Origin: Candidatus Anammoxibacter sp.
GTDB lineage: Bacteria; Planctomycetota; Brocadiia; Brocadiales; Anammoxibacteraceae
Assembly (NCBI GenBank): GCA_021777055.1
Contig: JAIQZO010000071.1
Span: 1 to 64,000, forward strand
Direction of reading: 5' to 3'
Length of the DNA stretch: 64,000 bases
The translations under genes and the position numbers were made by a program. Position 1 is the stretch's first letter. Every line of letters begins with the position of its first letter. Below the pieces are notes generated by a model that saw nothing but the letters and a program-made list of their open reading frames with translations, was not told the origin of the DNA and made no database searches. This document shows, in pieces, positions 1,072-37,917 of this stretch.

Positions 1072-2532
1072 TTGAGAACGCTATCCAATAATTTATGGAA
1101 ATTGAATATATTGAAAAGGAAACATATCCAGATTGTAATAATTATAATATCTGTCTTTGCTCCTATAAGAGACATCTTTACACAATCTACGGAAATCGCA
1201 ACTGAACCTTCTTCATCAATAAACAGTTTTAACACTATATTTGATGGGGTATCCGGAGCTTTCACCTTACGATACCACGGTAGACATGCCGAAGGAGATG
1301 GAAGATCAGATCAGGATTTCTATGAATCTCTTCGTCTGAGTTACATTAATCCTAAAAACGAAAAGATATCAGGATATCTCAGTGGAGCGTTACGTCAAGA
1401 TATTGATGATCCCAGTACCCTGTTCAGATCTATAGACGATACGCATGATAACAGTTTAAGGGGGTATCTATATGAACTTTATGCAAATATCAATGATATT
1501 GGTATTATTGAATCTGCCAAAATAGGTCGACAGTATTCATATGACGTTGAAAATTTACATTTTGATGGCCTACATCTAAGATTTAAACCTTTTCATAATA
1601 TACGATTCGCAACCTTTGCAGGCATTCCTGTACATTTTCAGGAATCAAGTTCCGACGGGGACTGGATAAGTGGGATATCAGTTGAAATTAAACCGTTAGA
1701 AAACTCTACAATAAGATTCGATTATGTGGTTTCAAGTGACAACAGTGATGATACAATTGGCAATCATCATGACAACCTTTTCATAGTCAACGCCTGGCAC
1801 AATATAAAACAGTGGTGGCGCATATACGGCAGATTCTCAAAATTAGACTCCATAAGCCGTGATCTTCAGATACGCTCATTCTGGAACTTTTCGTCATTAG
1901 ATCTTAATATTCAGTTTTCATATTACAAACAATCTCAGAAACTTGGCGATTTTACAACTACATTCAACGAGTTTGTACCTTCAATGGGAAACTATGAAGC
2001 GTACGATCAATATACGCTGGACATTTACAAAGGGATTGGAAATCATATGGGCATCAACATTGGAGCAAGTTTACGTGAATTAAAAGATGAATCTGATGAA
2101 AACTCATTTAACAACGATTTTGAACGATATTATATCACATATTCACTCTTTGATTATCCTTTAAAAGGATTAACTACAACTGTAACCGGTGAAGATTATG
2201 AGACGGCCGGAGATGATATTCAGTCTATTAGTTTTGATGTTACACATAATTTTAGCAAGAATCTTAAAATCAGCCTTGGTACATACTATTCCCTTTATAA
2301 GTATGACACAACATCCGGTGTAGACCTCACTGCTTTAAATAGCATGTCTGAAGATACATTCTTTCCAGTTGATTCACTAAACGAATCTGAACGGGATAAT
2401 GTCAGGAGTTATTACCTGAAAGTAAAAAAGAGATTCTTTGATAATTGGGAAATCTGGGGAAAATATGAGTATGAAAATTTTGACTCGGATATCTTTCATA
2501 CTTTCCAAACTGCACTGAAAGTTAAATTTTAA
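1072..2532 (+). CDS. Outer-membrane beta-barrel-like protein beside multiheme cytochromes
   Basis: The 486-residue product has a basic N-terminus and a hydrophobic stretch (about residues 16-32), consistent with a signal peptide. The rest alternates polar and aromatic/hydrophobic residues, with repeated short tracts such as LRLSYINP, IRFDYVVSS and YYLKVKKRFF. It ends in FQTALKVKF, a terminal aromatic residue as in beta-barrel outer-membrane proteins. The start used is TTG at 1072; no later ATG keeps the full signal sequence. It lies 45 bases before a 19-heme lipoprotein. From this context I infer the porin of a porin-cytochrome conduit (the role of MtrB or OmbB), but I see no sequence motif that proves that family; an unrelated porin is the alternative. 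Confidence 0.6.
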   Translation: MRTLSNNLWKLNILKRKHIQIVIIIISVFAPIRDIFTQSTEIATEPSSSINSFNTIFDGVSGAFTLRYHGRHAEGDGRSDQDFYESLRLSYINPKNEKISGYLSGALRQDIDDPSTLFRSIDDTHDNSLRGYLYELYANINDIGIIESAKIGRQYSYDVENLHFDGLHLRFKPFHNIRFATFAGIPVHFQESSSDGDWISGISVEIKPLENSTIRFDYVVSSDNSDDTIGNHHDNLFIVNAWHNIKQWWRIYGRFSKLDSISRDLQIRSFWNFSSLDLNIQFSYYKQSQKLGDFTTTFNEFVPSMGNYEAYDQYTLDIYKGIGNHMGINIGASLRELKDESDENSFNNDFERYYITYSLFDYPLKGLTTTVTGEDYETAGDDIQSISFDVTHNFSKNLKISLGTYYSLYKYDTTSGVDLTALNSMSEDTFFPVDSLNESERDNVRSYYLKVKKRFFDNWEIWGKYEYENFDSDIFHTFQTALKVKF

Positions 2533-2577
2533 GAACTGTTAGATCAAAGTTGAGCTTCAAAAATCAAGCTAGAAATC

Positions 2578-4035
2578 ATGAGAAAAAAGAGATACTCTAA
2601 GACAACATATGTAATCCTATTAGTTTCTATTATTACCGCCCTAATGATTGTTGGATGTGCGTATAAATTTGGTAAAGACCAAGAAAAATCGCAGAAAGAG
2701 ATAAAAGCCTATGTTCATAAGACTCACGATAAAGTAGGAACCAGTAATTGCGAGACTTGTCATACCACCGCATACAAGAGCTCATTGGCTGGAATGCCCA
2801 GTGAGAAGATATGTATTTTCTGCCACGAAAAGGTTGGAAAGGGAGTATTGGTACAAGGGCTATATAATAAAGATAAATGGACTGCTGATTATAAAATTGC
2901 AAGGGCAAAGTTTGACGAGATCAAGATATCTCACAAAGAACATATGGATGTTAAGGAAATAAGTTGTAAGGATTGCCACGGCAATATAGCAAACAGCATT
3001 GAAGTTACAGATGAGCACGTTCCCACAATGGAATCATGCTTTCAATGTCATAAAAAATGGGTTGGTCCTAAACAATGCGAAAAATGTCATAAGGAAATAG
3101 CTGCAGATACTCTTCCAAAGTCACATTTTGTTAATGATTTTAAAAATAACCATGGAAAAATAGTAAAGGAAAAATATGCAGACCCGGCAAAAAGATTAAC
3201 GTCTGCCTCTAGTTGCTTCATCTGCCATTCTCAGGATTCATGCGACAGCTGTCATCAAGCAATGCCTCCAGAGAATCATAACAATCAATGGAGACTCATT
3301 GGTCACGGCATTACAGCAGGCATAGAGAGGGAAAGATGCTCTACCTGCCACAAAACAGACTTTTGTTCTAGATGTCACGAAAACGTTAAGCCCAGGAGTC
3401 ATTTGGAAAATGGATGGGGCGAGCCAACTTTGAATCATTGTAATTCGTGTCACATGCCAATCAGTTCTACTAGTTGCGGCGTTTGTCACAAAACAACTCC
3501 AAGTCATGAAAAAAAACCAGCTGATCATATCCCCCTGAGCTGGGGAGTACCGGCGAATAACCACTGTATGACTTGTCACAGAACCCCTGCAAAGTGTTTG
3601 GTTTGTCATGAGGAGAATTCCACACATAACATTGACAGTTATTTGGAGTCCCATATACGTATATTAAACTGGGGCAGTCCGGCAAATAAACATTGTGCGG
3701 CCTGTCACACCAATCCAAGGCCCTGTATGGTTTGCCACCATGAAGGAACGCCTAGTCATGATGAGGTAGAACCTATAACCCACACGGCTAGATACGGTTC
3801 GCCCAGACATCAACACTGTTTACAATGCCATATGCCAATCTCCAATTCGCCGCAATGCTCTACGTGCCACCCGGCAAGGGTAGGAGAGCATATTAGCGAA
3901 GCAGTTCCAATTCCTGATGATTTTCGCCATAGGCCTGAAGCAATCATTCGTTGCAGAAGGTGTCACATTTCGGGAATTCGGCGATTGAGACACGCTGATA
4001 ACGGTCAAGCATGTAAGATATGTCATGAGCGTTGA
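2578..4035 (+). CDS. 19-heme c-type cytochrome lipoprotein
   Basis: The 485-residue protein has a lipoprotein-type signal (hydrophobic segment about residues 11-26 ending in the lipobox-like IVGC, Cys27) and 19 CxxCH haem-binding motifs spread from residue 58 to the C-terminus. The middle is made of roughly 45-residue repeats with paired haems and a recurring WG-P--NHC--CH pattern (about residues 280-435). It should be exported, lipidated and loaded with c-haems in the periplasm or at the outer membrane. It lies between the barrel-like gene and the cytochrome b/c fusion gene, so it probably passes electrons between inner and outer membrane. The family resembles other large multihaem proteins of anammox and metal-reducing bacteria; no catalytic haem is recognisable. 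Confidence 0.85.
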   Translation: MRKKRYSKTTYVILLVSIITALMIVGCAYKFGKDQEKSQKEIKAYVHKTHDKVGTSNCETCHTTAYKSSLAGMPSEKICIFCHEKVGKGVLVQGLYNKDKWTADYKIARAKFDEIKISHKEHMDVKEISCKDCHGNIANSIEVTDEHVPTMESCFQCHKKWVGPKQCEKCHKEIAADTLPKSHFVNDFKNNHGKIVKEKYADPAKRLTSASSCFICHSQDSCDSCHQAMPPENHNNQWRLIGHGITAGIERERCSTCHKTDFCSRCHENVKPRSHLENGWGEPTLNHCNSCHMPISSTSCGVCHKTTPSHEKKPADHIPLSWGVPANNHCMTCHRTPAKCLVCHEENSTHNIDSYLESHIRILNWGSPANKHCAACHTNPRPCMVCHHEGTPSHDEVEPITHTARYGSPRHQHCLQCHMPISNSPQCSTCHPARVGEHISEAVPIPDDFRHRPEAIIRCRRCHISGIRRLRHADNGQACKICHER

Positions 4036-4190
4036 TAATAAAATCTAAGCATCCATATGACTCATATCCAAACAAATAGGGCTTTAATTTTTTTTCTATT
4101 CAGAATGAAACCTCTTGGAAATACGAAAAGAACTATATGCTATTAAATATAGTTTGTTTTCTAAAAAACCCGTTTGCATAACTATAAAAT

Positions 4191-6665
4191 ATGGCAAATA
4201 AAGAACCCTTTGCTATGAAAACAGATTTAGTGCGTAGATTTACCATCGTAGAGGTAGTCTACCATGGTATTCAGGTGTTGCTATACCTCACCATGTTTAA
4301 TACCGGCGGTGCGCTTCTGGTGCAAAGGTTGTTTGAAATAGAAATATTTGAACCTGAGAAGTTGTCCAATATTCATCGTTTTGTCGGGTTACTATTGATA
4401 TCATTTATTTCCATGACGATATTTTTCAGCATTTTTTTTAAAAGTATGCGACCGCTCTGGGGTACGTTTCTTGAGGCTTTTAAATGGTATTTTAACGACA
4501 TTGTCTGGTTCGTAAAAATGCCGTTGAATTTTATTAATCATAAAGTAACGGTTCCACCGTCAGCACGGTTTAATCCGGGGCAACGGATGCATCTGCTGGT
4601 TATTATGTCTCTTATATTTGTTTCTGCTACTACCGGGTTAACTATGATGATATACAGGCCGGGAGCTATCGGTCCATGGATTGCACACGCCTCCACCATT
4701 CCACCTGCTGCCTTTTTTCTTAGCTTACATACTTTTCTGGCTTTAGTAAATCCATCCACGCGCAAGGCGTTAAAAGGAATAGTTACGGGTTTTGTATCTA
4801 GGACTTACGCTGAAGAACATCACCCTCTCTGGATAAAGAGCGAAGGGCATATTGTACATGATGGATATGTATCGCGCAAAGCAGTTATTATAGTTGGATC
4901 AATCCTTATTACAATAGGGTCTTTCGTTGTATGGCATGTGGGGCCTGGCCTTATCTATGCACAATTAACAAAGGTTGTAAACAATAGAGGCAGAGAAGCA
5001 ATTACACCCGGCAAGTTGATTTCGTATCATGATGCGGAAACAGATACAAAGCATTGCACCTCTTGTCATGAATATTTTAATTCGCCGCAATCAGGTAAGT
5101 GTCTAAAATGCCACAAGGAGATTCAAAGAATATTAGCCAACCGACAGGGGTATCACGGAACATTGACTGGACAATGTTCCGTCTGCCACAAAGAACATAA
5201 AGGGCTTGATGCAAAGATGATCACACTTGACACGGGCACATTTGACCACAAGCTTGCCCGTTTTTCATTACTTGGCAAGCATCGTGAACTGGAGTGCGAA
5301 AAATGCCATCTGAAGAATATCAAGAAAACTGACCAGACAAGAATCCAATACACTAATCTGGATTTTGAATCTTGCTCATCATGCCACCGCAATCCCCATC
5401 CAGGACTTACAGATGATAAAGATTGTCTCTCTTGTCACACCATGCATGGATGGTCCAGGAAACAATTAAAATTTAAACATAATAGAGACAGCCAATTCAA
5501 ACTTGTTGATAAACATAGCGAGGTTTCTTGTGAAAAATGCCATAAAACTATTCTAGAAAAAGATAAGATTGTCCAGGTTAAACTTACTAATGTGGGAAAA
5601 CATTGTAAAGATTGCCATGATGATCCGCATGGTGGACAGTTTAAAGCTGAGTGTTTTTATTGTCATTCAGAAAAGGGGTGGAAAGATTTGAGACCAGGTA
5701 AGATACATACGGCTGATTCTACATTTCCACTTAAAGGGAAGCATTCTAAAGTAAAATGTGATGAGTGCCATAAACCTTTGCATTTGAAAACAGTACTAGC
5801 GCAAGCAAAGTTCGTTGGGTTGTCCCATGAATGCGGATCCTGTCATAAAGATCCACATAAAGGTCAAATGGCTCATCCTTGTAAGACGTGCCACACTGAG
5901 CAGGGTTGGAAAGGGAAAAACCTTTTATTTGTACATAACAAGCATTCATCATTTAAGCTTAAAGGCAATCACTCTAAAGTTCAATGTCAGAAATGTCATA
6001 AGCCGCAACACACCAAAGGCGAACTCGCAAAAGTGCGGTTTGCAGGCTTATCCCATGAATGTGCTTCCTGTCATAAGGACCCTCATAGTGGACAGATGTC
6101 TCATACTTGCAAAACATGTCACGTAGAGAAAGGTTGGAAAGGTGATAATCTATTGTTTGTTCACAATAAACATTCTGTTTACAAGATTAAAGATTTACAC
6201 CGACATGTTTCATGTTCATCATGTCATTTATCCGGTAGAGATAAGATTGTCAGGTATAAACCATTGCAAAAAGAGTGCAATTTATGCCACAATGATATGG
6301 ATGATTTTATGAATGGAATATCAGATACAATTGAATCCGCACCTGATCATCATGCTTGTAAAGTGACGTGTTTAGATTGCCACCCTGAAAGCATAAATAA
6401 ACAATCTCACCCTGAATATGCTCAAAGGTGTGCTTCCTGTCATAACCAGGGCTATTTTTACATCTATTTCTCTTGGATGGATGGAAAAGCAAAAAAAGCA
6501 GAGAAATTCCTAAAAATGGTGGAGAAATCGGACGGAATCAGTAATAAACAAAAGGAGTACTATAAAGACAGGATCAGAACGATTGAAAAGATCTGTTTTC
6601 ACAATATTCAGCTAGCAAGAAAAATGCTTAAGGAGTTAATTGAATCCGCTAATATAAAAAAATGA
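4191..6665 (+). CDS. Fusion of membrane cytochrome b domain and 19-heme cytochrome c domain (CbcL-like layout)
   Basis: The 824-residue protein starts with about five membrane segments (residues about 22-45, 62-84, 125-147, 160-182, 230-250) carrying histidines, as in cytochrome b561/FdnI-type dihaem subunits. It continues with a periplasmic tail containing 19 CxxCH motifs. From about residue 345 the tail is a tandem array of roughly 75-residue modules, four complete and one partial, each with three haems and a KH--V-C--CHK ... CHKDPH-GQ ... C-TCH--KGW pattern. The same layout, b-type domain fused to a multihaem c domain, is known in CbcL of Geobacter, a quinol oxidase for extracellular electron transfer. 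I infer quinol oxidation at the inner membrane. Start ATG 4191 has no clear ribosome-binding site; ATG 4215 is an alternative. Confidence 0.85.
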   Translation: MANKEPFAMKTDLVRRFTIVEVVYHGIQVLLYLTMFNTGGALLVQRLFEIEIFEPEKLSNIHRFVGLLLISFISMTIFFSIFFKSMRPLWGTFLEAFKWYFNDIVWFVKMPLNFINHKVTVPPSARFNPGQRMHLLVIMSLIFVSATTGLTMMIYRPGAIGPWIAHASTIPPAAFFLSLHTFLALVNPSTRKALKGIVTGFVSRTYAEEHHPLWIKSEGHIVHDGYVSRKAVIIVGSILITIGSFVVWHVGPGLIYAQLTKVVNNRGREAITPGKLISYHDAETDTKHCTSCHEYFNSPQSGKCLKCHKEIQRILANRQGYHGTLTGQCSVCHKEHKGLDAKMITLDTGTFDHKLARFSLLGKHRELECEKCHLKNIKKTDQTRIQYTNLDFESCSSCHRNPHPGLTDDKDCLSCHTMHGWSRKQLKFKHNRDSQFKLVDKHSEVSCEKCHKTILEKDKIVQVKLTNVGKHCKDCHDDPHGGQFKAECFYCHSEKGWKDLRPGKIHTADSTFPLKGKHSKVKCDECHKPLHLKTVLAQAKFVGLSHECGSCHKDPHKGQMAHPCKTCHTEQGWKGKNLLFVHNKHSSFKLKGNHSKVQCQKCHKPQHTKGELAKVRFAGLSHECASCHKDPHSGQMSHTCKTCHVEKGWKGDNLLFVHNKHSVYKIKDLHRHVSCSSCHLSGRDKIVRYKPLQKECNLCHNDMDDFMNGISDTIESAPDHHACKVTCLDCHPESINKQSHPEYAQRCASCHNQGYFYIYFSWMDGKAKKAEKFLKMVEKSDGISNKQKEYYKDRIRTIEKICFHNIQLARKMLKELIESANIKK

Positions 6666-7417
6666 ACAAACTTATTATCTTTATTATTTATCCGGTTTTG
6701 GTGTTTTTTATTAATCTTCTTTTCCGGTTACCGTTTTTATTTTCTTTAATTTCTTTCTACGGTGTACCAGCTTTTTACGTTTCAATAAAAAACAGGCAAC
6801 ATATACGGCGTGCCTTTGCCGTATCATTTGCCGTATTTCCATTATTCGTAGTTTTTGATTATATGGGTCTTATTAATAAGGCGTGGTTTAATGGCAGCAC
6901 ATTATGGGATTACAGAATAATAGATCTTTTTACTATAGAAGAGTTGCTTTGGGCTCTTTTTCTAAACTATTTTATTGCTATTGTTTATTTCTCCTACATT
7001 AATACTATAGCGGTTATTCGTCCCAAGGTTGTTCCCTGTTTTGCTATTTTTAGCGCTTTTCTAATGGGATTTTTCTTTGTTATCAAAGAGGTGGGGTTGA
7101 TCATCATTCCACACTTTTATATAATTTTTGGCCTGATTGTTATAGTACCTCCCATATTATTAAATTTCTACAAAAAGATTATTCCAATAAAACGATTCTT
7201 ATGGATAATGCTCTATTTTACTTTTTTTCATTTTTTATACGAGATTGCCGGTGTTCATTTGAAATGGTGGGAATTTAAAGGGGTTGATTATATTGCACAG
7301 GTATCTATTTTTGGAGCAACGTTCCCTCTTGAAGAACTCATATTTTGGGTTATCATGGGTGTTCCCTCGTCATTGGTTTATCTGCATTTAGCCTATAAAT
7401 CAGAAGTAAGGATGTGA
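6662..7417 (+). CDS. Lycopene-cyclase-domain-like integral membrane protein
   Basis: The 251-residue protein is strongly hydrophobic with about seven to eight membrane segments. It contains a tandem motif typical of heterodimeric/fused CrtYc-CrtYd lycopene cyclases: an acidic residue, a Trp, then (F/L)xxEEL(L/I)(W/F), once at about residues 66-98 (FTIEELLW) and again at 194-229 (FPLEELIFW). The start codon overlaps the end of the upstream cytochrome gene (ATGA), so the two are probably translationally coupled. No carotenoid gene such as crtB or crtI is nearby; instead a type III polyketide synthase cluster with a UbiA prenyltransferase follows. I infer a membrane terpenoid cyclase acting on a prenylated product; a carotenoid role elsewhere in the cell is the alternative. 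Confidence 0.6.
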   Translation: MNKLIIFIIYPVLVFFINLLFRLPFLFSLISFYGVPAFYVSIKNRQHIRRAFAVSFAVFPLFVVFDYMGLINKAWFNGSTLWDYRIIDLFTIEELLWALFLNYFIAIVYFSYINTIAVIRPKVVPCFAIFSAFLMGFFFVIKEVGLIIIPHFYIIFGLIVIVPPILLNFYKKIIPIKRFLWIMLYFTFFHFLYEIAGVHLKWWEFKGVDYIAQVSIFGATFPLEELIFWVIMGVPSSLVYLHLAYKSEVRM

Positions 7418-7779: not shown

Positions 7780-8895
7780 ATGAAAGATATAATTATTATC
7801 GGTGGCGGTGTGGCCGGATTGGTCAGCGCCATTAATCTAGTGAATCATGGGTTAAATGTCCTTGTGATAGAGAAGAACTCTTACCCGTCTCATAAAGTTT
7901 GTGGTGAATATGTTTCCAATGAAGTAAAGCCATTTTTAGAATCTTTAGACGCATTTCCAGATAAATTTAATCCGCCGGAGATTTCACGTTTTGTTTTAAC
8001 ATCGTGTCAGGGAAGAAGTTGCAGTATGCCATTGGATTTAGGCGGATTTGGTATCAGTCGCTATACCCTTGATCAGTTTCTGTTTGAAAAGGCAACAAAC
8101 GCTGGGGTAAAAATCTTGTTAAATACTCAGGTTGATCAAGTCACGTTTACAGATGATTCATTTTATCTTCAACTCTCTGATGGAAGCAGCTTAACTTCCC
8201 ACCTGGTAATAGGATGTCAGGGAAAGCAATCAAAGATCGACAGGGCCTTAGAAAGAGATTTCCTCAATCATAAAGGTGAATTTATCGGTGTAAAGTATCA
8301 TATTCAATATGACTTTCCAGATGATACCATCGCATTGCATAATTTCAAGGGTGGATATTGTGGAATATGCAAGATTGATGGTGATAAATATAACCTTTGT
8401 TATTTGGGACAAAGAAAGGATTTGCAACGATTCGGCAACATCAAGCGGATGGAAGAGGAGATACTATACCAGAATCCCCATCTAGAGGATATCTTTAATA
8501 ATGCGGATTTCCTGTTCGGTAAAGCAATGATGGTTACCGGAATAGGATTTGTGCCTAAAGGTTTAATAGAAAATCATGTACTAATGTGCGGCGATTCTGC
8601 GGGTGTTATCACACCGCTTTGTGGGAATGGGATAGCGCTTGCCATTCATGCGGCTAAAATAGTGTCGGAATTGATCATAGAGTATTATAGGGTAGATAAT
8701 TTTGACAGGGCAAGACTGGAAGCTGAATACAGTGCAAGATGGAAAAAATTATTTGCTTTTAGATTAAAAGCAGGTCCTATAATGCAAAATCTATTCGGCA
8801 ACGGTTTTTCAACTGAAATTGCCGTAATGATAATGAAATACTTTAAACCGGTTGCGCGATATATGATGAGTCAGACCCATGGCAAACCGTTTTAA
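7780..8895 (+). CDS. FAD-dependent oxidoreductase, geranylgeranyl-reductase family
   Basis: The 371-residue flavoprotein opens with a Rossmann FAD-binding motif (IIIGGGVAGLVSAINL, residues 4-19), followed by an acidic strand end (VIEK) and the KVCGEYVS segment typical of geranylgeranyl reductase-like and halogenase-like group A flavoproteins. The second FAD motif MCGDSAGVITPLCGNGI lies at about residues 267-283. Proteins of this type reduce prenyl double bonds or oxidise aromatic polyketides. It belongs to the cluster with the type III polyketide synthase, methyltransferase and UbiA prenyltransferase, a gene set I have seen together in other bacteria. Substrate is unknown. Its stop overlaps the convergent UbiA gene by four bases. 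No ribosome-binding site precedes the ATG. Confidence 0.8.
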   Translation: MKDIIIIGGGVAGLVSAINLVNHGLNVLVIEKNSYPSHKVCGEYVSNEVKPFLESLDAFPDKFNPPEISRFVLTSCQGRSCSMPLDLGGFGISRYTLDQFLFEKATNAGVKILLNTQVDQVTFTDDSFYLQLSDGSSLTSHLVIGCQGKQSKIDRALERDFLNHKGEFIGVKYHIQYDFPDDTIALHNFKGGYCGICKIDGDKYNLCYLGQRKDLQRFGNIKRMEEEILYQNPHLEDIFNNADFLFGKAMMVTGIGFVPKGLIENHVLMCGDSAGVITPLCGNGIALAIHAAKIVSELIIEYYRVDNFDRARLEAEYSARWKKLFAFRLKAGPIMQNLFGNGFSTEIAVMIMKYFKPVARYMMSQTHGKPF

Positions 8896-9758
8896 ATTAA
8901 TTTAAAGAGCAGAAAGAATGCATTCATGCAAGCAGCTGTTATAAAATTGAGACGCATAGTATTTGTAAAGTCCGCTTTTGTTTGATCTTTTATTACCTTT
9001 AAAGACCATCTTATGAAGAATGTCAGCACTGGCAGTAAAAATAATTGAAAGAGAATAGCTGACCGTAGATTGTAATTGTTCAGATAAAAAATTATGAAAC
9101 AGGCATTGGTGATTGAAAATACCACGGCAGTAAATAGGAACGTGCCTTTAATCCCTAAGAGTATACTTAAAGTTCTGTCGCCCCGTTTGGAATCTTCAGA
9201 ATGCTGGTAGACTTGTGTCATAGGGTATGAGCCCCAAAGTAGCATTGATGACAAGAGTGCCGGTATCAAGGCCGTTTGCTTTGCAAAAACGTCAAACCCC
9301 ATGTTGTTTAAGGCCATAGAGGTCATTATAAATGTAAAAAATCCTTGAAAAAAGCCGGCTATAAAGAAGCTGATAAACGGGTATTTTTTCAATCTGATGG
9401 AAGGATGACTGTACGCCTTGGAGACCAAGCCGTATATTAGAAGCATAAATGAAAATTCGATACTTATTAACAGTCCTAAAACCAGGGCAGCAAAATCCAT
9501 TATCAAAGCGGTGTAATACAATTGTTTTTTTACCTGAGGGGGATTTTTTAAACCACCTATACTACCCTCATCTTTGTCAAAATAGCTGTTGTATCCATTG
9601 CTTGCCGGATAAAGTAGGAAATGGATAATGAAAAATGCCAACCAGGCCGCCTGACATTCAATATCTGTTGAAAGGCTCAGGGCAAACAAAAACACCGGCA
9701 ATAAAAAGAATGAAAACGGTATGCGTAAATGTAGAAACGTTGAACGTGATATCATCAT
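8892..9758 (-). CDS. UbiA-family prenyltransferase
   Basis: The 288-residue membrane protein has about eight hydrophobic helices. The two aspartate-rich motifs of UbiA prenyltransferases are visible: NSYFDKDEG (about residues 57-65), and YQHSEDSKRGDRT (about residues 186-198, matching YxxxED--GD). These bind Mg-prenyl diphosphate; the family attaches prenyl chains to aromatic acceptors or small rings inside the membrane. It is transcribed divergently from the polyketide synthase (47 bases between the starts) and convergently with the FAD oxidoreductase. The likely acceptor is the polyketide made next door, which is inference. Confidence 0.8.
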   Translation of the reverse strand: MMISRSTFLHLRIPFSFFLLPVFLFALSLSTDIECQAAWLAFFIIHFLLYPASNGYNSYFDKDEGSIGGLKNPPQVKKQLYYTALIMDFAALVLGLLISIEFSFMLLIYGLVSKAYSHPSIRLKKYPFISFFIAGFFQGFFTFIMTSMALNNMGFDVFAKQTALIPALLSSMLLWGSYPMTQVYQHSEDSKRGDRTLSILLGIKGTFLFTAVVFSITNACFIIFYLNNYNLRSAILFQLFLLPVLTFFIRWSLKVIKDQTKADFTNTMRLNFITAACMNAFFLLFKLI

Positions 9759-9805
9759 TGCCTCACTGATTAAATTAACTTTATTTTCATTAATAATAAT
9801 ACAAC

Positions 9806-10930
9806 ATGAACAAGATTATCACAAGTAATATAAGATCCATCGGGTTGGCCACACCACGATATAAATACGAACAGAAAACTATTCTAGATTTTATGTTGCG
9901 TACCCATCAATGTGAGAACGGCAACATCAAACGATTGAAAGCAATGTACAGGGCTAGCGGCATTAAATATCGATATTCCGTGTTGGAAGATTATGATAAG
10001 GAAGTTCAGGATTTCAGGTTTTACCCTGCAAATCAGGAATTAGAACCGTTTCCATCTACTTCACAAAGAATGTCCGTATACAAACAAAATGCATTTCAAC
10101 TGGCGGAAGAAGCAATCAATGATTGTTTAAAACCTTTGACTGATGTAAATCTTGATCAAATAACGCACCTCATCACCGTAAGCTGCACTGGTATGACTGC
10201 ACCGGGATTAGATCTGGAGATTATCGAAAAGATGAACCTAAATGGATCGATACAAAGGACATCAATTAATTTTATGGGATGCCATGCTGCATTTAATGCT
10301 TTAAAGATTGCTGACTCTATTTGTTCGGCGAATCCCGAATCGTTAGTGCTTGTGGTTTGTGTAGAATTGTGTACTCTCCATTTTCAAAAAGAAAACAGTG
10401 AAAATTATATGCTTGCCAATAGCCTTTTTAGCGACGGTAGCGCAGCCGCTTTAATTAGTCCCCAGAGAGGACCTGGTGTAAATTTTTCTATAAAAAAATT
10501 TTACTGCGATGTGGACTTTCAGGGTAAAAAGGATATGACCTGGGATATTGGTGAATTTGGTTTTGAGATGACACTCTCTTTACAAGTTCCTCAAGTCATC
10601 AAATCCGGTATTGCGCGATTGTCAGGAAAATTGCTAAAAGACCTCTCTCTGTCGTTAGAAGAAATCGATTTCTTTGCAATTCATCCAGGGGGAAAGAAGA
10701 TACTACGTACGATTGAAGACGAATTGAAAATTGAAAAGGGACGCAACCGTTTTGCATATGAGATCTTGAGGAACTATGGAAACATGTCATCATCTACAAT
10801 TTTTTTTGTATTAAGAAATATTTGGGACCAATTGTCCGAAAGCGATTCAGAAAAGAACGTTTTAAGCTTCGCCTTTGGCCCTGGACTCACACTTGAAAGT
10901 ATGTTGCTTGAAATAGATTACCGGAGTTAA
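9806..10930 (+). CDS. Type III polyketide synthase (chalcone synthase-like)
   Basis: The 374-residue thiolase-fold enzyme carries the catalytic Cys-His-Asn triad of type III polyketide synthases: Cys in INFMGCHAAFNALK (about residue 154), His in FFAIHPGGKK (about residue 296), and Asn in EILRNYGNMSSST (about residue 328). The VSCTGMTAPGLD segment is also typical. The enzyme extends an acyl-CoA with malonyl-CoA units and cyclises the product to a pyrone, resorcinol or phloroglucinol. The methyltransferase gene follows after four bases. The start ATG has no ribosome-binding site. The starter unit cannot be told from the sequence. Confidence 0.9.
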   Translation: MNKIITSNIRSIGLATPRYKYEQKTILDFMLRTHQCENGNIKRLKAMYRASGIKYRYSVLEDYDKEVQDFRFYPANQELEPFPSTSQRMSVYKQNAFQLAEEAINDCLKPLTDVNLDQITHLITVSCTGMTAPGLDLEIIEKMNLNGSIQRTSINFMGCHAAFNALKIADSICSANPESLVLVVCVELCTLHFQKENSENYMLANSLFSDGSAAALISPQRGPGVNFSIKKFYCDVDFQGKKDMTWDIGEFGFEMTLSLQVPQVIKSGIARLSGKLLKDLSLSLEEIDFFAIHPGGKKILRTIEDELKIEKGRNRFAYEILRNYGNMSSSTIFFVLRNIWDQLSESDSEKNVLSFAFGPGLTLESMLLEIDYRS

Positions 10931-10934
10931 TATT

Positions 10935-11642
10935 ATGTTTTTAAAACGATCTGAAGAAACTGAACTTATGGACGATCTCTCCTTTACTGGCGATGAGATG
11001 CGTATTACCCTCAAAGAGTTGGAGACCATTAACAGATGGTTGGGAGGTAACAACATAACTATTTCCGGGCTGAATATTCTGCTTTCAGGTAACGATACGC
11101 CCACAACGATTGCAGACATAGGCTGTGGGCGTGGTGACATGCTTAAATTAATGGCACAATGGGCACATGCAAAGGGTTTAAAGATAAGTTTAACTGGGAT
11201 AGACGCTAACCGGTCTATCATAGATTATGCAAAGGAAAATACTGTTGATTATCCTGAAATCACTTATGATTGCGTAAATATCTTTTCCGATGATTTCCAA
11301 AATAAAAGATACGATATAATCGCCTGCTCCCTTTTTACCCACCATTTCACAGACGAAGAATTGGTTGCATTGCTTAAAATTTTGAAAAATCAAACAAAAC
11401 TGGGAATAATTATCAACGATCTTCACAGACATTGGCTGGCCTACCACTCCATCAAATATATCACCGCCGCGTTTTCCGGTTCACACATGATAAAAAATGA
11501 CGCCCCCCTATCTGTTTTACGCTCTTTCAGTCGTGAAGATTGGTCGAAAATATTGAGCCTGTCAGGTATACGAAAATACAGTCTAACATGGAAATGGGCT
11601 TTTCGTTGGCAGTTGATAATACCAACATTGAATAATTTTTAA
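10935..11642 (+). CDS. SAM-dependent methyltransferase of the polyketide cluster
   Basis: The 235-residue class I methyltransferase has the SAM-binding motif TIADIGCGRGDMLKLM (about residues 58-73), then the acidic ribose-binding residue in LTGIDANRS and a YDIIACSLFTHHF motif-II-like stretch. It starts four bases after the polyketide synthase stop with GGAG upstream, so it is co-transcribed. It probably methylates the ring O or C atoms of the polyketide or an intermediate. The short N-terminus with LMDDLSFTGDEMRITLKELE resembles methyltransferases found beside type III synthases in Bacteroidetes, from memory. Confidence 0.8.
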   Translation: MFLKRSEETELMDDLSFTGDEMRITLKELETINRWLGGNNITISGLNILLSGNDTPTTIADIGCGRGDMLKLMAQWAHAKGLKISLTGIDANRSIIDYAKENTVDYPEITYDCVNIFSDDFQNKRYDIIACSLFTHHFTDEELVALLKILKNQTKLGIIINDLHRHWLAYHSIKYITAAFSGSHMIKNDAPLSVLRSFSREDWSKILSLSGIRKYSLTWKWAFRWQLIIPTLNNF

Positions 11643-28195: not shown

Positions 28196-29182
28196 TTATT
28201 CTTCTCCTTCTGATAAGATTGCCTCTAAAGTCGTAATCAAACCAACCAAGATATCCGCCCCACTGGAATGCCCTATCTCTAATATTTTTTTTGTTAATAT
28301 TTTAACATGTTTACTATCACCTTGGAATAAGGATACCAGCCAATTGGATATCAAATCCTGTACCCATCCCCGTGCTGCAGCTTTAATAAGTGTAGCGGAA
28401 AAAGGAGATGTTTTATGTCCAACGGAATTTGCCAGGTTTTCAAGTTGATCTTCTGTGAACCTATCATTAAAAATAGTATTATAAAAATAAAGAGAGGCAA
28501 ACACTCCGCAGAGAAAATCATCTCCAGAAGGAGTTAGACCAATACCTACACCTACTATTTTTTGGGAATATTTGGAAAATTCCAGCCAATCCCTATCCCT
28601 GATGGATAAACTTATTCTTTGAATATGTGGCTTTACCGCCTCTAATATTTGATTATCCTCATCATTACCAATCAAAATTGGAAAGAAACCGTCTATTCCA
28701 GTTGTTAGACACGCCTCTCGTCGGCATTCCTGCAACTCTTTAATAATATTTTCCTGTGGAATGATATACTTAATTGTAAAACTAGGGGTATAAATGGGCA
28801 TAAATCTTAGATTCAAATAGAAAGACCTTCCAATCTTCTCTTGACGTGCAGTGGCAGTGTCTCTGCATGCATCAACACGGTTGATGCACTCCATATTACC
28901 ATCAATATATGGATATTGTTTCAAATTGCTCATACTCCATCTTTTAATACACAATCTCCTTTTTGTAATAGAAAAAGTATCGCCTATACAAATACTTTTG
29001 GGTAAAATATTTGTCCTTATGGTGAATGGATGGTTTGGTATCTTTTCGGAACCAAGTGTCAAAACACAGTTTTCTGCCGTTAAATGTATTGAATTCTCAA
29101 ATATAGCAGTCACTCTTCCTGTTTGTTCAGATGTCTCGTTTTCTATAACCCCACAACCTACTGTTTCTTGATTAATAACCAT
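28196..29182 (-). CDS. allH: DUF2877 protein, AllH-like subunit of oxamate carbamoyltransferase
   Basis: The 328-residue protein carries the DUF2877 signature GVGIGLTPSGDDFLCGVFASL (key residues GLTPSGDD, about 213-220) followed by KTSPFSATLIKAAARG. In E. coli the DUF2877 protein YlbF (AllH) works with AllF (FdrA) and AllG (YlbE, DUF1116) as oxamate carbamoyltransferase, which makes oxamate and carbamoyl phosphate from oxalurate and phosphate. Both partners are encoded upstream in this same-strand gene series. A 315-base gap with a palindromic element separates it from the GlcF-like gene, and no ribosome-binding site is visible, so its expression may differ from the rest. Assignment rests on family recognition from memory. 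Confidence 0.8.
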   Translation of the reverse strand: MVINQETVGCGVIENETSEQTGRVTAIFENSIHLTAENCVLTLGSEKIPNHPFTIRTNILPKSICIGDTFSITKRRLCIKRWSMSNLKQYPYIDGNMECINRVDACRDTATARQEKIGRSFYLNLRFMPIYTPSFTIKYIIPQENIIKELQECRREACLTTGIDGFFPILIGNDEDNQILEAVKPHIQRISLSIRDRDWLEFSKYSQKIVGVGIGLTPSGDDFLCGVFASLYFYNTIFNDRFTEDQLENLANSVGHKTSPFSATLIKAAARGWVQDLISNWLVSLFQGDSKHVKILTKKILEIGHSSGADILVGLITTLEAILSEGEE

Positions 29183-29497
29183 TGTTTTTTAGTAAGTTTA
29201 AACTGTTTTCAAAGAAATCAATTTATATAAAAGATATAAAACTATATAAAATACCACAACGGGGTGAAACATACCAGCGCAGGGCAACGCCCTGGGGCAA
29301 AGATAACCATTAAAACTCACCCTGCATGGGTGCAACATATATAACCGACGTAATCAAATGTATGTTACGCCCTTACAGGGCTATATCTTTTTTCTACTTT
29401 GTCCCAGGGCGTTGCCCTGCGCTGGTATATCTGCCCCTTACAGGGCCAAACTTATAGATTAGATCTGCAAACAGTTTGAACTTACGTTTTTTATTTT
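29183..29497. repeat. Palindromic element, family B (perfect 26-bp arms)
   Basis: ATACCAGCGCAGGGCAACGC plus CCTGGG at 29271-29296 is exactly complementary to 29403-29428. Further partly complementary tracts (GGGGTGAAAC, CCCTGCATGGG, CCCTTACAGGG) lie inside and outside. A second copy is at 57049-57332. It looks like a non-coding mobile or REP-like element inserted between the GlcF-like gene and allH. Confidence 0.75.
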
Positions 29498-30679
29498 TCA
29501 TTCTAACGACTCTAGAAGTAACTCTTCCACACCTGCAAATTGTAACGGGCTGTTAAGCGCTTTTAACGATTGAGTAAAACTAGTTTGGCAAAACGGACAC
29601 ATGGTCACAAGGGTATCTGCGCCGGTCTCTTCCGCTTCTTTAACACGACTATTTGAAATCTCTGTTGCCATGTCAGGATAGTTTGCCTTTACCCCCCCGC
29701 CTGCACCACAACACTTAGAGTCTTTTCTCTTAAAATCCATTTCAATAAGTTCGATTCCCGGTATAGAGTTTAATATCTCCCTTGGTTCATCATAAATATT
29801 CTGCGCTCTGCCAAGATGACATGGATCGTGATAAGTAACCTTTCTTTTAAGCTCTCTTACCGGCTTAAGTTTTTTCTGCCTGAGAAGATCAACATAAATC
29901 TCCGAGAAATGCACCACTTTAATATCCCATTTTTTACCAAGATGTTTTGCCCAGACAGGATAGTCATGTCTTAATGTTTTCGAACAACCCGAACATGGGG
30001 TAACAATCTTCTTGACACCCATTTCATTAAACAGATCAACATTAGATCCAATTAACCTTTTTGCTGATTCTATCTGTCCTGTCCTTAAGATCGGACTGGA
30101 GCAGCACACTTCTTTGCCCCCTGCATAGCAGAAAGGTATACCGACACGGGTCAGTATCTTTGCTCCTGTTTGCAGCATAGGAGGCATTTTATACGAGCAT
30201 GTACAACCTCCAAATAGTAGGATTTCCGCTTTTTCACTGGGTTTTATATCAGGCAACAACCATCGATCTCTTTCAGCTTTTGGCTCACCATACGGATTAT
30301 CAAATTCCTCAACAAACTTTCCAAATTTCTTGTGTGCCGGCATTGGACCACTGCCCATTTTCACAGATTCCGCTCTTGCCGCTTCCCAAATTTGTACTAA
30401 TGGTATATCTGTCTGGCAAACCTCAACACATCTTTCACAGGTAGTACATTGATAGAGTCTTTCTACCCAATCATTAGTGAGTTCACCTTTTCCATCTTTA
30501 ATCTTTTTTAGATGATAGATTTTTGACCTTGGCGAAAATGCTTCAAAACCTCCACCAAAAGGATGTGTAGGACACACCGGTTTACAGAAACCGCATCGAG
30601 CACAGGTGGATAGTGCATAGTCTAAAGATTCTGATAACCCTAACTCATCGAATAACGAAAGCTTACTGTTTTTTGTCAT
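29498..30679 (-). CDS. GlcF-like iron-sulfur subunit of a 2-hydroxyacid oxidase
   Basis: The 393-residue protein has two 4Fe-4S motifs near the N-terminus (CARCGFCKPVCPTHP and CTTCERCVEVCQTD, between about residues 26 and 92). It also has the two cysteine-rich CCG domains (LFGGCTCSYK...EVCCSSPI...CSGCSKTL and YHDPCHLGR...SKCCGAGGG...MCPFCQTSF). This is the layout of GlcF, LldE-type and heterodisulfide-reductase-D-like subunits that pass electrons from a flavoprotein. It starts two bases after the stop of the GlcD-like gene, so the two form one enzyme. In this cluster a likely substrate is a 2-hydroxyacid such as ureidoglycolate or glycolate (inference). Confidence 0.85.
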   Translation of the reverse strand: MTKNSKLSLFDELGLSESLDYALSTCARCGFCKPVCPTHPFGGGFEAFSPRSKIYHLKKIKDGKGELTNDWVERLYQCTTCERCVEVCQTDIPLVQIWEAARAESVKMGSGPMPAHKKFGKFVEEFDNPYGEPKAERDRWLLPDIKPSEKAEILLFGGCTCSYKMPPMLQTGAKILTRVGIPFCYAGGKEVCCSSPILRTGQIESAKRLIGSNVDLFNEMGVKKIVTPCSGCSKTLRHDYPVWAKHLGKKWDIKVVHFSEIYVDLLRQKKLKPVRELKRKVTYHDPCHLGRAQNIYDEPREILNSIPGIELIEMDFKRKDSKCCGAGGGVKANYPDMATEISNSRVKEAEETGADTLVTMCPFCQTSFTQSLKALNSPLQFAGVEELLLESLE

Positions 30680-30681
30680 AA

Positions 30682-32142
30682 CTATTCCCCATGTTTTTCA
30701 TTAAAAACAGATTTATATCTATTTTTATAGATAGATATTTTTGCTATTGGTGACATCAGTTTTGAGATTAGATTCATAAAAACACAGATATTCAAGAGTG
30801 GTATCTGTCTTATTTTAGGAGGTATTATCTTGCCTGGATTTAATAAAAGTTTAGAATCCCTCTCTTTCTTTGTATTTACAATATAGTTGTATTTTTTCAT
30901 GCCAAACAACTCTTTAGAATTGTTAGCTAACCATAATCCTGCCGTGTAGAAAGAACCTCCATAACGTAACGCTATTCCTAATGGCCTCAACGCCTTTGCC
31001 ATCCTTATCTGATAAAACATACTTTTAGCATTATCAAGAATATAAACTAATACTGCCATTTTATTATCATTAACAACAACGGCCTCCATTCCAAGGGTAT
31101 CATTTGCTAGATCTTTTTCTATCTCCGTCCATGCTCTGTCAAAACATTTCTCCGGAAGATAAAATTCACCTACCAAGACCGATGGCCCAAACTTTTTTAT
31201 CCGCATGGGATAAAACCGATCCTCCCACTCTTCCATCGCAGTCTCTTTGCTTAATGATTTCCCCGCGGATTCATCAATAATTGATTTCAGAGTAATATCA
31301 TCTTTATTGCTTTCTTCAAATGCAATTAAGGCATGAAAATCTTGCGTACCATTTCCATTCTCATAGTTCTCCTGTTTACGCATCCTAATGTAACCTGAGG
31401 AATGGAGTATAATAGTATATGGCTTAAGCCTTTCACGAGCTTTTATAATAAAACTTTGTGCTGACTCTGTATTTGGTAAAAGAACACCGTATGGAACAAT
31501 TCTTTCTGCTTTTATACATTTCAATCTAAGACGCACAATTACTCCAAATATTCCGCATGTCTGATGGTATATTTCCATATCACTGCCGGAATATGTTCTT
31601 ACCTTACAATCCAGGTCAATTACGTCAATCTCTGTAACCACATCTCTAACACTTCCATATCTCATGCTTCCAAGCCCAACCCCACCTTTTGGAAACCATC
31701 CACCAACAGTAGATGAAGGCGCGCTAGTAGGACAGATACTGTTGTCAAGTCCGATCTTCCGTAATTCAAAGGAGAGATTATTCCAGATGATACCCGGTTC
31801 AACATCTACTGTAAGCGGCTCTTTATTAATGGATATTATTTTGTTCATACATGCCATATCCAGAACTATACCACCATTAGTAGGAATTGCACCTCCATAA
31901 CCGGAACTTCCTTGACCTCGTGGTGTAACGGCAATTCCAAATTCATTTGCTATAGAGAGTGTATCGATTACATCCTGATTACTTTTCGCTACAATTGCAG
32001 CTTCAGGTTTACAGTTAATCATACTCATAATAATAGACGGTATTTCACCAATATCATGATCATAAACCTCTAATAGTTCAGAGTCGAACGTAACTCTCTC
32101 TTCTAATTTTTCTTTTAATCTATCACGAATTCTTTGATTCAT
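30682..32142 (-). CDS. GlcD-like FAD-binding oxidase subunit
   Basis: The protein (486 residues from ATG 32142, chosen because AGGAG lies six bases before it) has a PCMH-type FAD-binding domain: AIVAKSNQDVIDTL, VTPRGQGSSGYGGAIPTNGG (FAD pyrophosphate loop), VDVEPGIIWNNL and STVGGWFPKGGVGLGSMRYG. The C-terminal cap ends with LLNPGKIIPP, as in GlcD and D-lactate/2-hydroxyglutarate oxidases. An extra C-terminal hydrophobic stretch (ICVFMNLISKLMSPIAKI) may touch the membrane. With the GlcF-like partner it should oxidise a 2-hydroxyacid and feed electrons to quinone or cytochromes. Oxidation of ureidoglycolate to oxalurate would link it to the carbamoyltransferase; that is a hypothesis. Confidence 0.85.
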   Translation of the reverse strand: MNQRIRDRLKEKLEERVTFDSELLEVYDHDIGEIPSIIMSMINCKPEAAIVAKSNQDVIDTLSIANEFGIAVTPRGQGSSGYGGAIPTNGGIVLDMACMNKIISINKEPLTVDVEPGIIWNNLSFELRKIGLDNSICPTSAPSSTVGGWFPKGGVGLGSMRYGSVRDVVTEIDVIDLDCKVRTYSGSDMEIYHQTCGIFGVIVRLRLKCIKAERIVPYGVLLPNTESAQSFIIKARERLKPYTIILHSSGYIRMRKQENYENGNGTQDFHALIAFEESNKDDITLKSIIDESAGKSLSKETAMEEWEDRFYPMRIKKFGPSVLVGEFYLPEKCFDRAWTEIEKDLANDTLGMEAVVVNDNKMAVLVYILDNAKSMFYQIRMAKALRPLGIALRYGGSFYTAGLWLANNSKELFGMKKYNYIVNTKKERDSKLLLNPGKIIPPKIRQIPLLNICVFMNLISKLMSPIAKISIYKNRYKSVFNEKHGE

Positions 32143-32160
32143 CTTAATCTCCTGCCACAA

Positions 32161-32554
32161 TGTTTTGCAAAAATAGTGTTTGCCTGGCTTTTTTTTATAG
32201 GTTTGATGTAAGTTTAATATGTTTACAGAAAGACAATATAACCGTAAAGCAATTTTATAATGAATGTCTCTGTCGCCCCTAATTGGGCTTGCACTATTGA
32301 ACCACTATTTCCCATAGCTTACGCTATGGGCTATCTTCTTTCGTCCCTACGGGACTTATCTTGCGATTTGTTTCTAATAAATATTTATAATGTAAGCCCT
32401 GTTAAGGGCGATAGATGTTAGCCCATAGCGTAAGCTATGGGAATTATGAAAACATATTTTAGCCCAGTAAAGGGCGACAGAAACTTGATCAAATAACAAA
32501 ATTAATAGAATCTGTGTAAATTTGAAGGGAAGGGAACTTTAAAAATTAGCATTC
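32161..32554. repeat. Palindromic element, family C
   Basis: CCCATAGCTTACGCTATGGG (32310-32329) has a near copy in inverted setting at about 32418-32440 (AGCCCATAGCGTAAGCTATG). Outer tracts CTCTGTCGCCCCTAATTGGG (about 32267) and AGCCCAGTAAAGGGCGACAG (about 32462) are also complementary, so the element is about 220 bp. A half copy is found at 49484-49510. No gene is supported. Confidence 0.65.
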
Positions 32555-34075
32555 CTATTCTAAATCGTTATTAATAACTCTCATGGCAACCCTTGCTGCA
32601 TCAGCGTTAGTATCAAACAGAAAGAATCCTGCTTTTTTAAGCCGTTCTCTTTGATTTTTAAGGGATTGTGGATCACTATCTGTTCCACAAACATGGGCGA
32701 TTAATATGGGCCCAGCATCGTTTATCTTTTCCCGTGCTGAATTTAATGCCTTGACCATATCACCTGCTGGGTCTTCTGCTGATCCATATCCTAACACTAT
32801 ATCGATTAAAATTACCTTTGTTTCGGGATCTGTAAACTCTTCTATAAATCTTTCCTCACGAAAATCAGAGCTAATCATTGGATGAGGCCGGCCATTTGTA
32901 AAGTCATCTTCACCCATATCTATACAAAGATGTTGAGAACCTTTGGCCGGATAATCAAGCTTTAATTTTGCCTCCAATGCTATATTTGAGTATACATCCA
33001 CATCGTTATTATTGTTAAATATTAGTAACGCTTCATAACAAAGAGTTCCCCCCGCATATAAACCACGAAGATACTTTCTCTCTTTTGTCATGTTTAGTAA
33101 ATGGCGGTTTAACGGTTCAGGGATTTTTACTGTTTTCTTCTTTTTTTTACAAGCAGAATATGCAGCATCCTCAAGTGTATTTACAATAGTTACATTTTTA
33201 TTTCCATTAAGTTTAGAATCTATACCTAGAAAACATATGGTTACCGGAAGTGCTGTTTTTACCGCCTCATCTACAACATCTTGCATCACCTTTAGAGAGG
33301 CTGGTTTTGATATCAATACCAATGATTTCGTCTTCTTATCTTTTGCAAGTTTTCTAATTGCGGATATCATCATAAGCCCACCAACCGATCCTTTAAGATC
33401 TCTTCCTCCCACACCTATTGCGTGGGAAATACCTTTACCAAGGTGATGAATAAGAGATGTAATCTCCTGTATCCCAGTTCCAGAAGCACCAATCACACCT
33501 ATTTCACCTTGCCTAATAACATTGGCAAAACCTAATGGCACTCCATTAATAATTGCCGTTCCACAATCCGGACCCATCATTAACAGGTCTTTCTTTACAG
33601 CTAATTTCTTTAAATGAACTTCATCTTCTAAAGCTACATTGTCTGAAAAAAGCATAACGTTAAGATTCTGTTCAACCGCATTAATCACATCGAGTGTAGC
33701 AAATTGACCTGGAACAGAGAAAAAGGCTAAGTTTGCGTTAGGCATAGTAGTAACCGCTTGATCAATATTGTTAAGAACTGCATATTTACTCTCTTTACTT
33801 GTTGGTTTTGACAATAGGTTATCTATTTCAATAACAGCATTATCCGCAGATGATTCGGTTTCAGATTCAACGCAGATAATCAAATCGTTCGGTGTTGAGG
33901 ACTTAATATCTTCAAGCATTAACCCCAGATCATTTATTATTTTTTTATTACCATCAGTACCAAGAAGTACTAAGACTTTTTTTACTCCATCGATGGCGTT
34001 TACCTTTCGTGAAATATTCATCAATCTGACAGAATCCTGGTACTCATTCTTTCTCACAATTACCTTTTGCGACAT
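32555..34075 (-). CDS. allF: FdrA/AllF, acyl-CoA-synthetase-like subunit of oxamate carbamoyltransferase
   Basis: The 506-residue protein matches FdrA: N-terminal VRKNEYQDSVRLM, a CoA-ligase-like Rossmann segment (GPDCGTAIINGVPLGFANV, GEIGVIGASGTGIQEI, AIGVGGRDLKGSVGG), and a second ligase-like domain (GLYAGGTLCYEAL ... ILIDIVLGYGSAEDPAGD). FdrA proteins have a succinyl-CoA-synthetase fold but in E. coli FdrA (AllF) is one of three proteins needed for oxamate carbamoyltransferase. AGGAG lies before the start. It follows the carbamate kinase gene by 18 bases, with DUF1116 upstream. Slightly shorter than E. coli FdrA (about 555). Confidence in the family is high, in the reaction moderate. Confidence 0.85.
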   Translation of the reverse strand: MSQKVIVRKNEYQDSVRLMNISRKVNAIDGVKKVLVLLGTDGNKKIINDLGLMLEDIKSSTPNDLIICVESETESSADNAVIEIDNLLSKPTSKESKYAVLNNIDQAVTTMPNANLAFFSVPGQFATLDVINAVEQNLNVMLFSDNVALEDEVHLKKLAVKKDLLMMGPDCGTAIINGVPLGFANVIRQGEIGVIGASGTGIQEITSLIHHLGKGISHAIGVGGRDLKGSVGGLMMISAIRKLAKDKKTKSLVLISKPASLKVMQDVVDEAVKTALPVTICFLGIDSKLNGNKNVTIVNTLEDAAYSACKKKKKTVKIPEPLNRHLLNMTKERKYLRGLYAGGTLCYEALLIFNNNNDVDVYSNIALEAKLKLDYPAKGSQHLCIDMGEDDFTNGRPHPMISSDFREERFIEEFTDPETKVILIDIVLGYGSAEDPAGDMVKALNSAREKINDAGPILIAHVCGTDSDPQSLKNQRERLKKAGFFLFDTNADAARVAMRVINNDLE

Positions 34076-34093
34076 ATTTGTTCTCCTCTACAT

Positions 34094-35047: not shown

Positions 35048-35124
35048 AATTTTCTCCTAAGACAGTGATTATTTATAAATTAAAGATTTTGCCACAAATA
35101 ATATGATTATATGGGCAAATTAAA

Positions 35125-36528: not shown

Positions 36529-36635
36529 TTGTTTCCTTCTTGTTTTGTAATTAATTTTAACAACATTAATATCAGAAGAGCATTTATCAAAGCTCAAATT
36601 GCTTATGGTTAACATTTCTCCCCAAATGATATAAT

Positions 36636-37451: not shown

Positions 37452-37524
37452 AAATGGTTTCTCCAAAATCAGTAACAAGATATCAGTATATTATAGTGAT
37501 GGCGTATTAGCGTTATCTCACTTT

Positions 37525-37917
37525 TCAAAGTCCATATGTTTTGTAATTAACTTGAACCTGATTAATAATTGTATTAGATACAAAACAATACTTTTTCGCT
37601 ATATCAAGAATGTCTTCAAGAACATTACTTTTGTTATCAGTACGAATATTGACATCTATGCTATCTAATCTAAAGGTTTCACTGTTTTTATTTCCTTCTA
37701 CATGAATCCTTAGGTTCTTTAGCTCTAAACCTTTTTTTGATGCAACAAAAACAATTGATTGACCGATACAGGATGCAATAGACCAAAGTAATAACTCACT
37801 GGGCATGGGGCCTACACCATCTCCGCCATACTCATGTGCCTGGTCTATTGTCATTTCAAATTTCTCTGAAACTACCTTAAACTTAAAATTATCAACATGT
37901 TTTAGTTCAATCTTCAT
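37525..37917 (-). CDS. OsmC-family protein
   Basis: The 130-residue protein matches OsmC/YhfA-like proteins: MTIDQAHEYGGDGVGPMPSE near the N-terminus, and LLWSIASCIGQSIVFVASKKGLEL, which holds the conserved Cys (Ser-Cys-Ile, about residue 50). The second catalytic Cys of peroxiredoxin-like OsmC appears as IAKKYCFVSNTI (about residue 112). The start overlaps the end of the radical SAM-GNAT gene by 11 bases; GTG codons two and one positions earlier are alternatives. The neighbours suggest a role in protecting or processing a reactive intermediate; a thiol-dependent hydroperoxide reductase is the default function. Confidence 0.8.
   Translation of the reverse strand: MKIELKHVDNFKFKVVSEKFEMTIDQAHEYGGDGVGPMPSELLLWSIASCIGQSIVFVASKKGLELKNLRIHVEGNKNSETFRLDSIDVNIRTDNKSNVLEDILDIAKKYCFVSNTIINQVQVNYKTYGL

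Follow-up and report, generated by a model that had tools for sequence, protein, structure and literature searches.

A stretch of 64,000 nucleotides at the start of contig JAIQZO010000071.1 from Candidatus Anammoxibacter sp. (the window, meaning the whole stretch that was analysed) carries an operon that probably encodes an electron conduit across the cell envelope, with extracellular electron transfer as the outcome and most likely in the outward direction. Its first three genes, at positions 1072 to 6665, encode an outer-membrane barrel, a 19-haem lipoprotein and a fusion of cytochrome b with a 19-haem cytochrome c. Measurements have shown that anammox bacteria can oxidise ammonium in dependence on an electrode. 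How the electrons leave the quinol pool and cross the outer membrane has so far only been guessed from transcriptomes, the proposal being a CymA-like tetrahaem protein together with a porin-cytochrome complex (Shaw et al. 2020, PMC7188810). With this operon, three specific proteins from a separate anammox family become available for testing. Its main features are as follows.

1072 to 2532, plus strand: outer-membrane beta-barrel of 486 residues including the signal peptide, with a TTG start and a C-terminal Phe; proposed sheath of the conduit
2578 to 4035, plus strand: multihaem lipoprotein of 485 residues with 19 CxxCH motifs and lipobox Cys27; proposed wire through the outer membrane
3508 to 3891, plus strand: lineage-specific insertion in the lipoprotein (residues about 311 to 438), three two-haem units of about 43 residues each, which take it from 13 to 19 haems
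4191 to 6665, plus strand: fusion of cytochrome b and 19-haem cytochrome c, 824 residues; proposed inner-membrane quinol:conduit oxidoreductase
4191 to 4841, plus strand: FdnI-like four-helix b-haem domain with invariant His25, His62, His166 and His180, candidate axial ligands of two b haems
4881 to 4955, plus strand: fifth helix, counterpart of the N-terminal signal anchor that a stand-alone 19- to 22-haem cytochrome has in other Planctomycetota
5055 to 6446, plus strand: 19-haem c domain, proposed to be periplasmic, with three-haem repeats of about 76 residues
5625 to 6080, plus strand: two extra three-haem repeat units, which the aligned 13-haem homologues from Brocadiaceae lack

The three open reading frames are consecutive, and their coordinates stood on rechecking; spacers of 45 bp and 155 bp separate the barrel gene from the lipoprotein gene and the lipoprotein gene from the fusion gene, respectively. 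The barrel contains no CxxCH motif and the two cytochromes contain 19 each. Since 2000 shuffles of the residues of each cytochrome gave on average 0.28 (lipoprotein) and 0.13 (fusion) motifs and never more than 3, these counts are not due to chance. The host genome encodes hydrazine synthase alpha, and the closest named locus, with 77% identity over the fusion product and with synteny continuing beyond it, belongs to Candidatus Anammoxibacter OFTM214, indicating that the host is an anammox bacterium. The window begins at the first base of the contig, so that the genes upstream of the barrel are cut off; in the relative, the upstream neighbours encode a metallo-beta-lactamase-fold protein and a two-component sigma-54 regulator, and no additional cytochrome.

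The barrel protein is devoid of Cys. It matches no Pfam or NCBIfam family at E ≤ 1, MtrB/PioB-type models included, and neither single-sequence nor profile searches connect it with the solved MtrB. An AlphaFold2 model based on an alignment of 34 homologues has 22 beta strands (pLDDT 82, pTM 0.77), in agreement with the sequence-only reading, which had recognised a barrel-like protein and named structure prediction as the check. Confidence is weak only at the N-terminus and in one loop, and there is no leftover domain to plug the lumen. Foldseek comparison of the model with the PDB retrieves outer-membrane barrels only, namely AlgE, MOMP, OprD-type porins and pilus ushers, the best query TM-score among the matches listed being 0.56 for the PapC usher. 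The C-terminal Phe is invariant across the 34 homologues, which fits the expectation for outer-membrane barrels. TonB-dependent receptors are 22-strand barrels able to house a folded domain.

Barrel homologues are present in 60 of 294 sampled Planctomycetota genomes, the host's own included. At all 44 loci where the sequence continues downstream of the barrel for 700 bp or more, a lipoprotein homologue is the next gene on the same strand, within about 400 bp, and the barrel and lipoprotein trees are concordant, with the same three groups. Judged by gene order and phylogeny, the barrel and the lipoprotein are an obligate pair, conserved as a unit. The 19-motif lipoprotein noticed beside the barrel at first reading is thereby borne out; the gene order, which that reading had called unusual, proves to be the rule, barrel followed by cytochrome being universal in the family (44/44). 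A scan within the same order found the barrel in 27 of 62 genomes, that is, in both Anammoxibacteraceae and in 25 of the 33 genomes of family f2, presumably the Brocadiaceae, and in none of the other families. The anammox families differ in whether they have the conduit: none of the 17 f94 genomes and none of the nine f3 genomes carries the barrel. Horizontal acquisition of the barrel is unsupported, as the Anammoxibacteraceae copies form one clade that groups weakly with the Brocadiaceae copies in the barrel tree.

The pair itself is already known from the two-gene pcc cluster of Kuenenia stuttgartiensis, which consists of a porin and a cytochrome without a surface cytochrome, the cytochromes of its group having 338–344 residues and 12–14 haems (Shi et al. 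2014, PMC4245776). The Brocadiaceae lipoprotein copies, of about 338–349 residues with 13–14 haems and with barrels about 30% identical, fit this description and are likely to represent the same locus. The comparison makes the barrel/lipoprotein pair a conserved putative conduit that is widespread in Planctomycetota. The operon link to an oxidoreductase of reversed domain order, the split-gene counterpart of that oxidoreductase and the haem ladders described below are new as far as searches show, and no mention of the 1072–6665 locus was found in the open-licence publications naming Anammoxibacter.

The neighbourhoods of the pair bear on its function. In many non-anammox Planctomycetota it is followed by proteins of about 1000 residues with strong matches to the MtrC/MtrF domain PF22113 (E 5e-37 to 4e-43 in five tested neighbours). 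Candidate quinol dehydrogenases at the pair are NapC/NirT-like multihaem proteins with three helices (loci L067 and L100) or, at L068, L096, L102 and L109, multihaem proteins that end in an FdnI-like cytochrome b. L109 (1359–5224), from a non-anammox planctomycete, shows the window's gene order of barrel, lipoprotein and 19-haem/cytochrome-b fusion, the last in CbcL-like domain order. The association with MtrC/MtrF-domain proteins and quinol dehydrogenases points to trans-envelope electron transfer, and gene context in non-anammox relatives thus supports a role of the pair as an outer-membrane conduit. No surface c-cytochrome is encoded in the operon or its conserved flanks; because the pcc clusters of Kuenenia and Anaeromyxobacter also lack one (PMC4245776), its absence is not disqualifying. 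The host genome contains a second pair (L014, contig C44), a barrel and a 17-haem lipoprotein near a 13-haem NapC/NirT-like protein. The same locus encodes an 8-haem protein with a carboxypeptidase-regulatory-like domain. Having two conduits, each with its own kind of quinol dehydrogenase, the host is reminiscent of Geobacter with its CbcL and ImcH.

The lipobox Cys is conserved in at least 90% of the lipoprotein family, most aligned members of which share 13 haem sites. The MtrA/DmsE-type decahaem model TIGR03508 scores only 12.9 bits against the lipoprotein (cut-off 192.2), and a link to MtrA was rejected, the only matches being to c7/alternative-complex-III-type and other multihaem proteins plus a weak stretch of OmcA.

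Residues 14–217 of the fusion protein match the formate dehydrogenase gamma model TIGR01583 (E 1.2e-12) with a score of 48.3 bits against a curated cut-off of 115.85, so that the domain is homologous but not an equivalog, and the sole credible relative in the PDB is FdnI (1KQF chain C, E 3.5e-8). The four candidate ligand histidines are invariant across seven homologues, with a 14-residue spacing in helix IV. The spacing of the four residues resembles the haem ligand pattern of FdnI, but phmmer aligns helix IV in another register, so they are no more than candidate ligands. At loci L112, L113, L115, L117 and L118, an FdnI-like protein and an anchored 19- to 22-haem cytochrome are encoded by separate, overlapping open reading frames. 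By sequence comparison the fusion protein is a joining of two proteins that are split elsewhere, and its fifth helix corresponds to the anchor of the c part. The fusion reported at first reading stands, and its five-helix domain is refined to four FdnI-like helices plus an anchor. The occurrence of b and c homologues as adjacent genes elsewhere suggests that the two halves work together, and the topology of FdnI would place the haem arm on the periplasmic side.

These features lead to a probable mechanism, comparative genomics giving the conduit good support. The fusion protein would oxidise menaquinol in the cytoplasmic membrane, rather than in that of the anammoxosome, via its two-haem FdnI-like cytochrome b, and the electrons would travel along its own 19-haem periplasmic arm. 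By direct contact the arm would pass them to the 19-haem lipoprotein, which may thread the 22-strand barrel and so reach the cell surface, where the electrons would leave, most likely for an acceptor that is solid or large, with no additional surface cytochrome of MtrC type taking part. Of the complete conduit from quinol pool to surface proposed at first reading, the neighbourhoods support trans-envelope electron transfer; its direction and actual conduction we infer.

Several observations weigh against this mechanism. Anammox cells have a second energised membrane, that of the anammoxosome, where the oxidase could also be sited. Neither the barrel nor the lipoprotein is recognisable in Pfam or NCBIfam as a member of the MtrB or MtrA family, and AlphaFold2 run without haems gave a poor model of the lipoprotein (pLDDT 53.5), which was not used for fold search. 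Canonical MtrC is represented in the host genome only by weak, partial PF22113 matches. The exact trio is known, among available genomes, only from two Anammoxibacteraceae. Conservation of the three genes in relatives, which the sequence-only reading had made a touchstone, accordingly holds for the pair; the trio is confined to one family, and in Brocadiaceae its modules sit at separate loci. Finally, the direction of electron flow cannot be read from sequence (PMC6295460).

Inward electron uptake is a serious rival, though on balance an unlikely one: a cathode, partner cells or extracellular Fe(II) or Mn(II) would donate electrons that enter through the barrel and lipoprotein and reduce quinone at the FdnI-like domain, as has been proposed for MtoAB/MtoC. 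Clusters without an MtrC-type surface cytochrome often come from Fe(II) oxidisers (PMC4245776), CbcL/MtrH/MtoC-type enzymes have been implicated in both directions (PMC6295460), the MtrC-like matches of the host are weak, and the isolate name OFTM214 of the nearest named relative points to the biofilm of the Oslofjord tunnel, which has been associated with the oxidation of iron and manganese (PMC10732223). However, export of electrons to electrodes has been demonstrated for anammox bacteria (PMC7188810), and non-anammox pairs often adjoin MtrC/MtrF-domain proteins typical of reducers, neither of which settles the direction here.

Another explanation, which we regard as improbable, is that the b/c fusion serves the anammoxosome membrane or other periplasmic partners and merely adjoins the porin-cytochrome pair, the two not forming one chain. 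The energy metabolism of anammox cells relies on the anammoxosome membrane, and the oxidase module occurs without a barrel, behind a five-haem cytochrome, on host contig C18, in Brocadiaceae and in other Planctomycetota. On the other hand, the three genes share a strand and short spacers and keep their order in two genera, and unrelated Planctomycetota also place a quinol dehydrogenase beside the pair, at L109 in the same three-gene order. Still less probable is a role of the pair other than electron exchange with cells or solids, whether in redox-controlled transport or in a redox reaction that is soluble and extracellular or takes place at the outer membrane: pcc clusters do occur in organisms that do not reduce Fe(III) or Mn(IV) (Shi et al. 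2014, PMC4245776), but the operon contains no gene for a catalytic partner and its cytochromes have no enzyme domain beyond haem motifs and cytochrome b.

Both wires of the proposed trans-envelope conduit are lengthened in modules. The six haem-binding sites of the lipoprotein insertion are at C330, C340, C373, C383, C414 and C427. The 17-haem paralogues on host contig C44 and on contig C90 of the relative have two such two-haem units and the copy on contig C30 of the relative has none, so that the lipoprotein haem number rises from 13 through 17 to 19. In the barrel tree, C30 with its 13-haem partner comes first, then the 17-haem copies and then the 19-haem pair. The haem arm of the oxidase has 13 haems in Brocadiaceae, 16 in one copy of the relative and 19 in the window. 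The suggestion that the haems are unusually many is right for the lipoprotein, the family norm being 13, but related oxidase modules of the phylum contain 19–22. A recent duplication of haem units at the DNA level was rejected, there being no direct repeats of at least 40 bp, so that the units are old. Lengthening in fixed steps suggests that selection may act on wire length or on haem number, and the two ladders, of two haems in the lipoprotein and three in the oxidase, form a natural set of variants in which the tuning of wire length by cells can be studied. It is conceivable, though rather doubtful, that the outcome is an all-in-one wire of two proteins and about 40 haems, which would lead from quinol to the outside and dispense with both a periplasmic shuttle and a surface cytochrome; the lipoprotein would then have gained two-haem units (from 13 through 17 to 19) and the oxidase would have been built from three-haem units (13, 16 and 19). 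At L102 (6247–7950), in another planctomycete, a 19-haem lipoprotein carries its extra two-haem units apparently at a different place in the protein.

Comparison with known systems places the operon among several of them. As in the Kuenenia pcc cluster, a porin-like barrel is followed by a multihaem c-cytochrome without a surface cytochrome, whereas the window lipoprotein has 19 rather than 13 haems and is linked to a dedicated b/c quinol oxidoreductase. With MtrAB/MtrCAB of Shewanella and with MtoAB it shares a multihaem cytochrome and a large barrel of empty lumen encoded together (PMC7198977); the differences are 22 predicted strands against the 26 of MtrB (PMC7198977), a cytochrome that is a lipoprotein, 19 haems against 10 and, relative to MtrCAB, the lack of an MtrC partner. 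CbcL, MtrH and MtoC likewise join a HydC/FdnI-like cytochrome b to a multihaem c domain, have 3–23 reported haems and often lie beside porin-cytochrome genes (PMC6295460, PMC9129911). In these enzymes the c haems are N-terminal and a six-helix b domain is C-terminal (PMC6295460), whereas the window fusion has the b domain first and the haems last, four plus one helices and split-gene relatives. The parts of the operon had at first been matched to porin-cytochrome systems and CbcL; the pair and a quinol-oxidase-like b/c fusion are upheld, and CbcL proper is not, since the domain order is reversed. In domain content the fusion resembles CbcL, and membership of that family is not claimed. Relative to FdnI (PDB 1KQF), it has a homologous four-helix membrane domain with a candidate b-haem His pattern, and differs in having an extra helix and 19 c haems and no formate dehydrogenase catalytic subunits. 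Dester_0351 and Theam_0871 are also multihaem proteins with a formate-dehydrogenase cytochrome-b-like part beside a pcc cluster (PMC4245776); by their description they are set apart by six typical and two atypical haem motifs and by another phylum.

One more gene belongs to the operon.

6662 to 7417, plus strand: fourth operon gene, 251 residues with about five hydrophobic segments, overlapping the oxidase gene by 4 bp

Its product has no Pfam or NCBIfam match, and a homologue holds the same place beside the oxidase gene in the other Anammoxibacteraceae genome. Directly downstream, at 7780–11642, lie genes for an FAD oxidoreductase, a UbiA prenyltransferase (on the opposite strand), a type III polyketide synthase and a methyltransferase. 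Synteny with the relative covers no fewer than the first three of these genes, and the set could yield a quinone-like aromatic lipid, either prenylated or alkyl. Further along the window, a cluster at 28196–40278 includes a FAD_binding_4 oxidase (30682–32160), a CoA-ligase-domain protein (32555–34075) and, adjoining the latter, a gene at 34094–35047 whose product looks by eye like a carbamate kinase. This cluster resembles FdrA-type oxamate/allantoin catabolism and may be a source of ammonium for the anammox cell.

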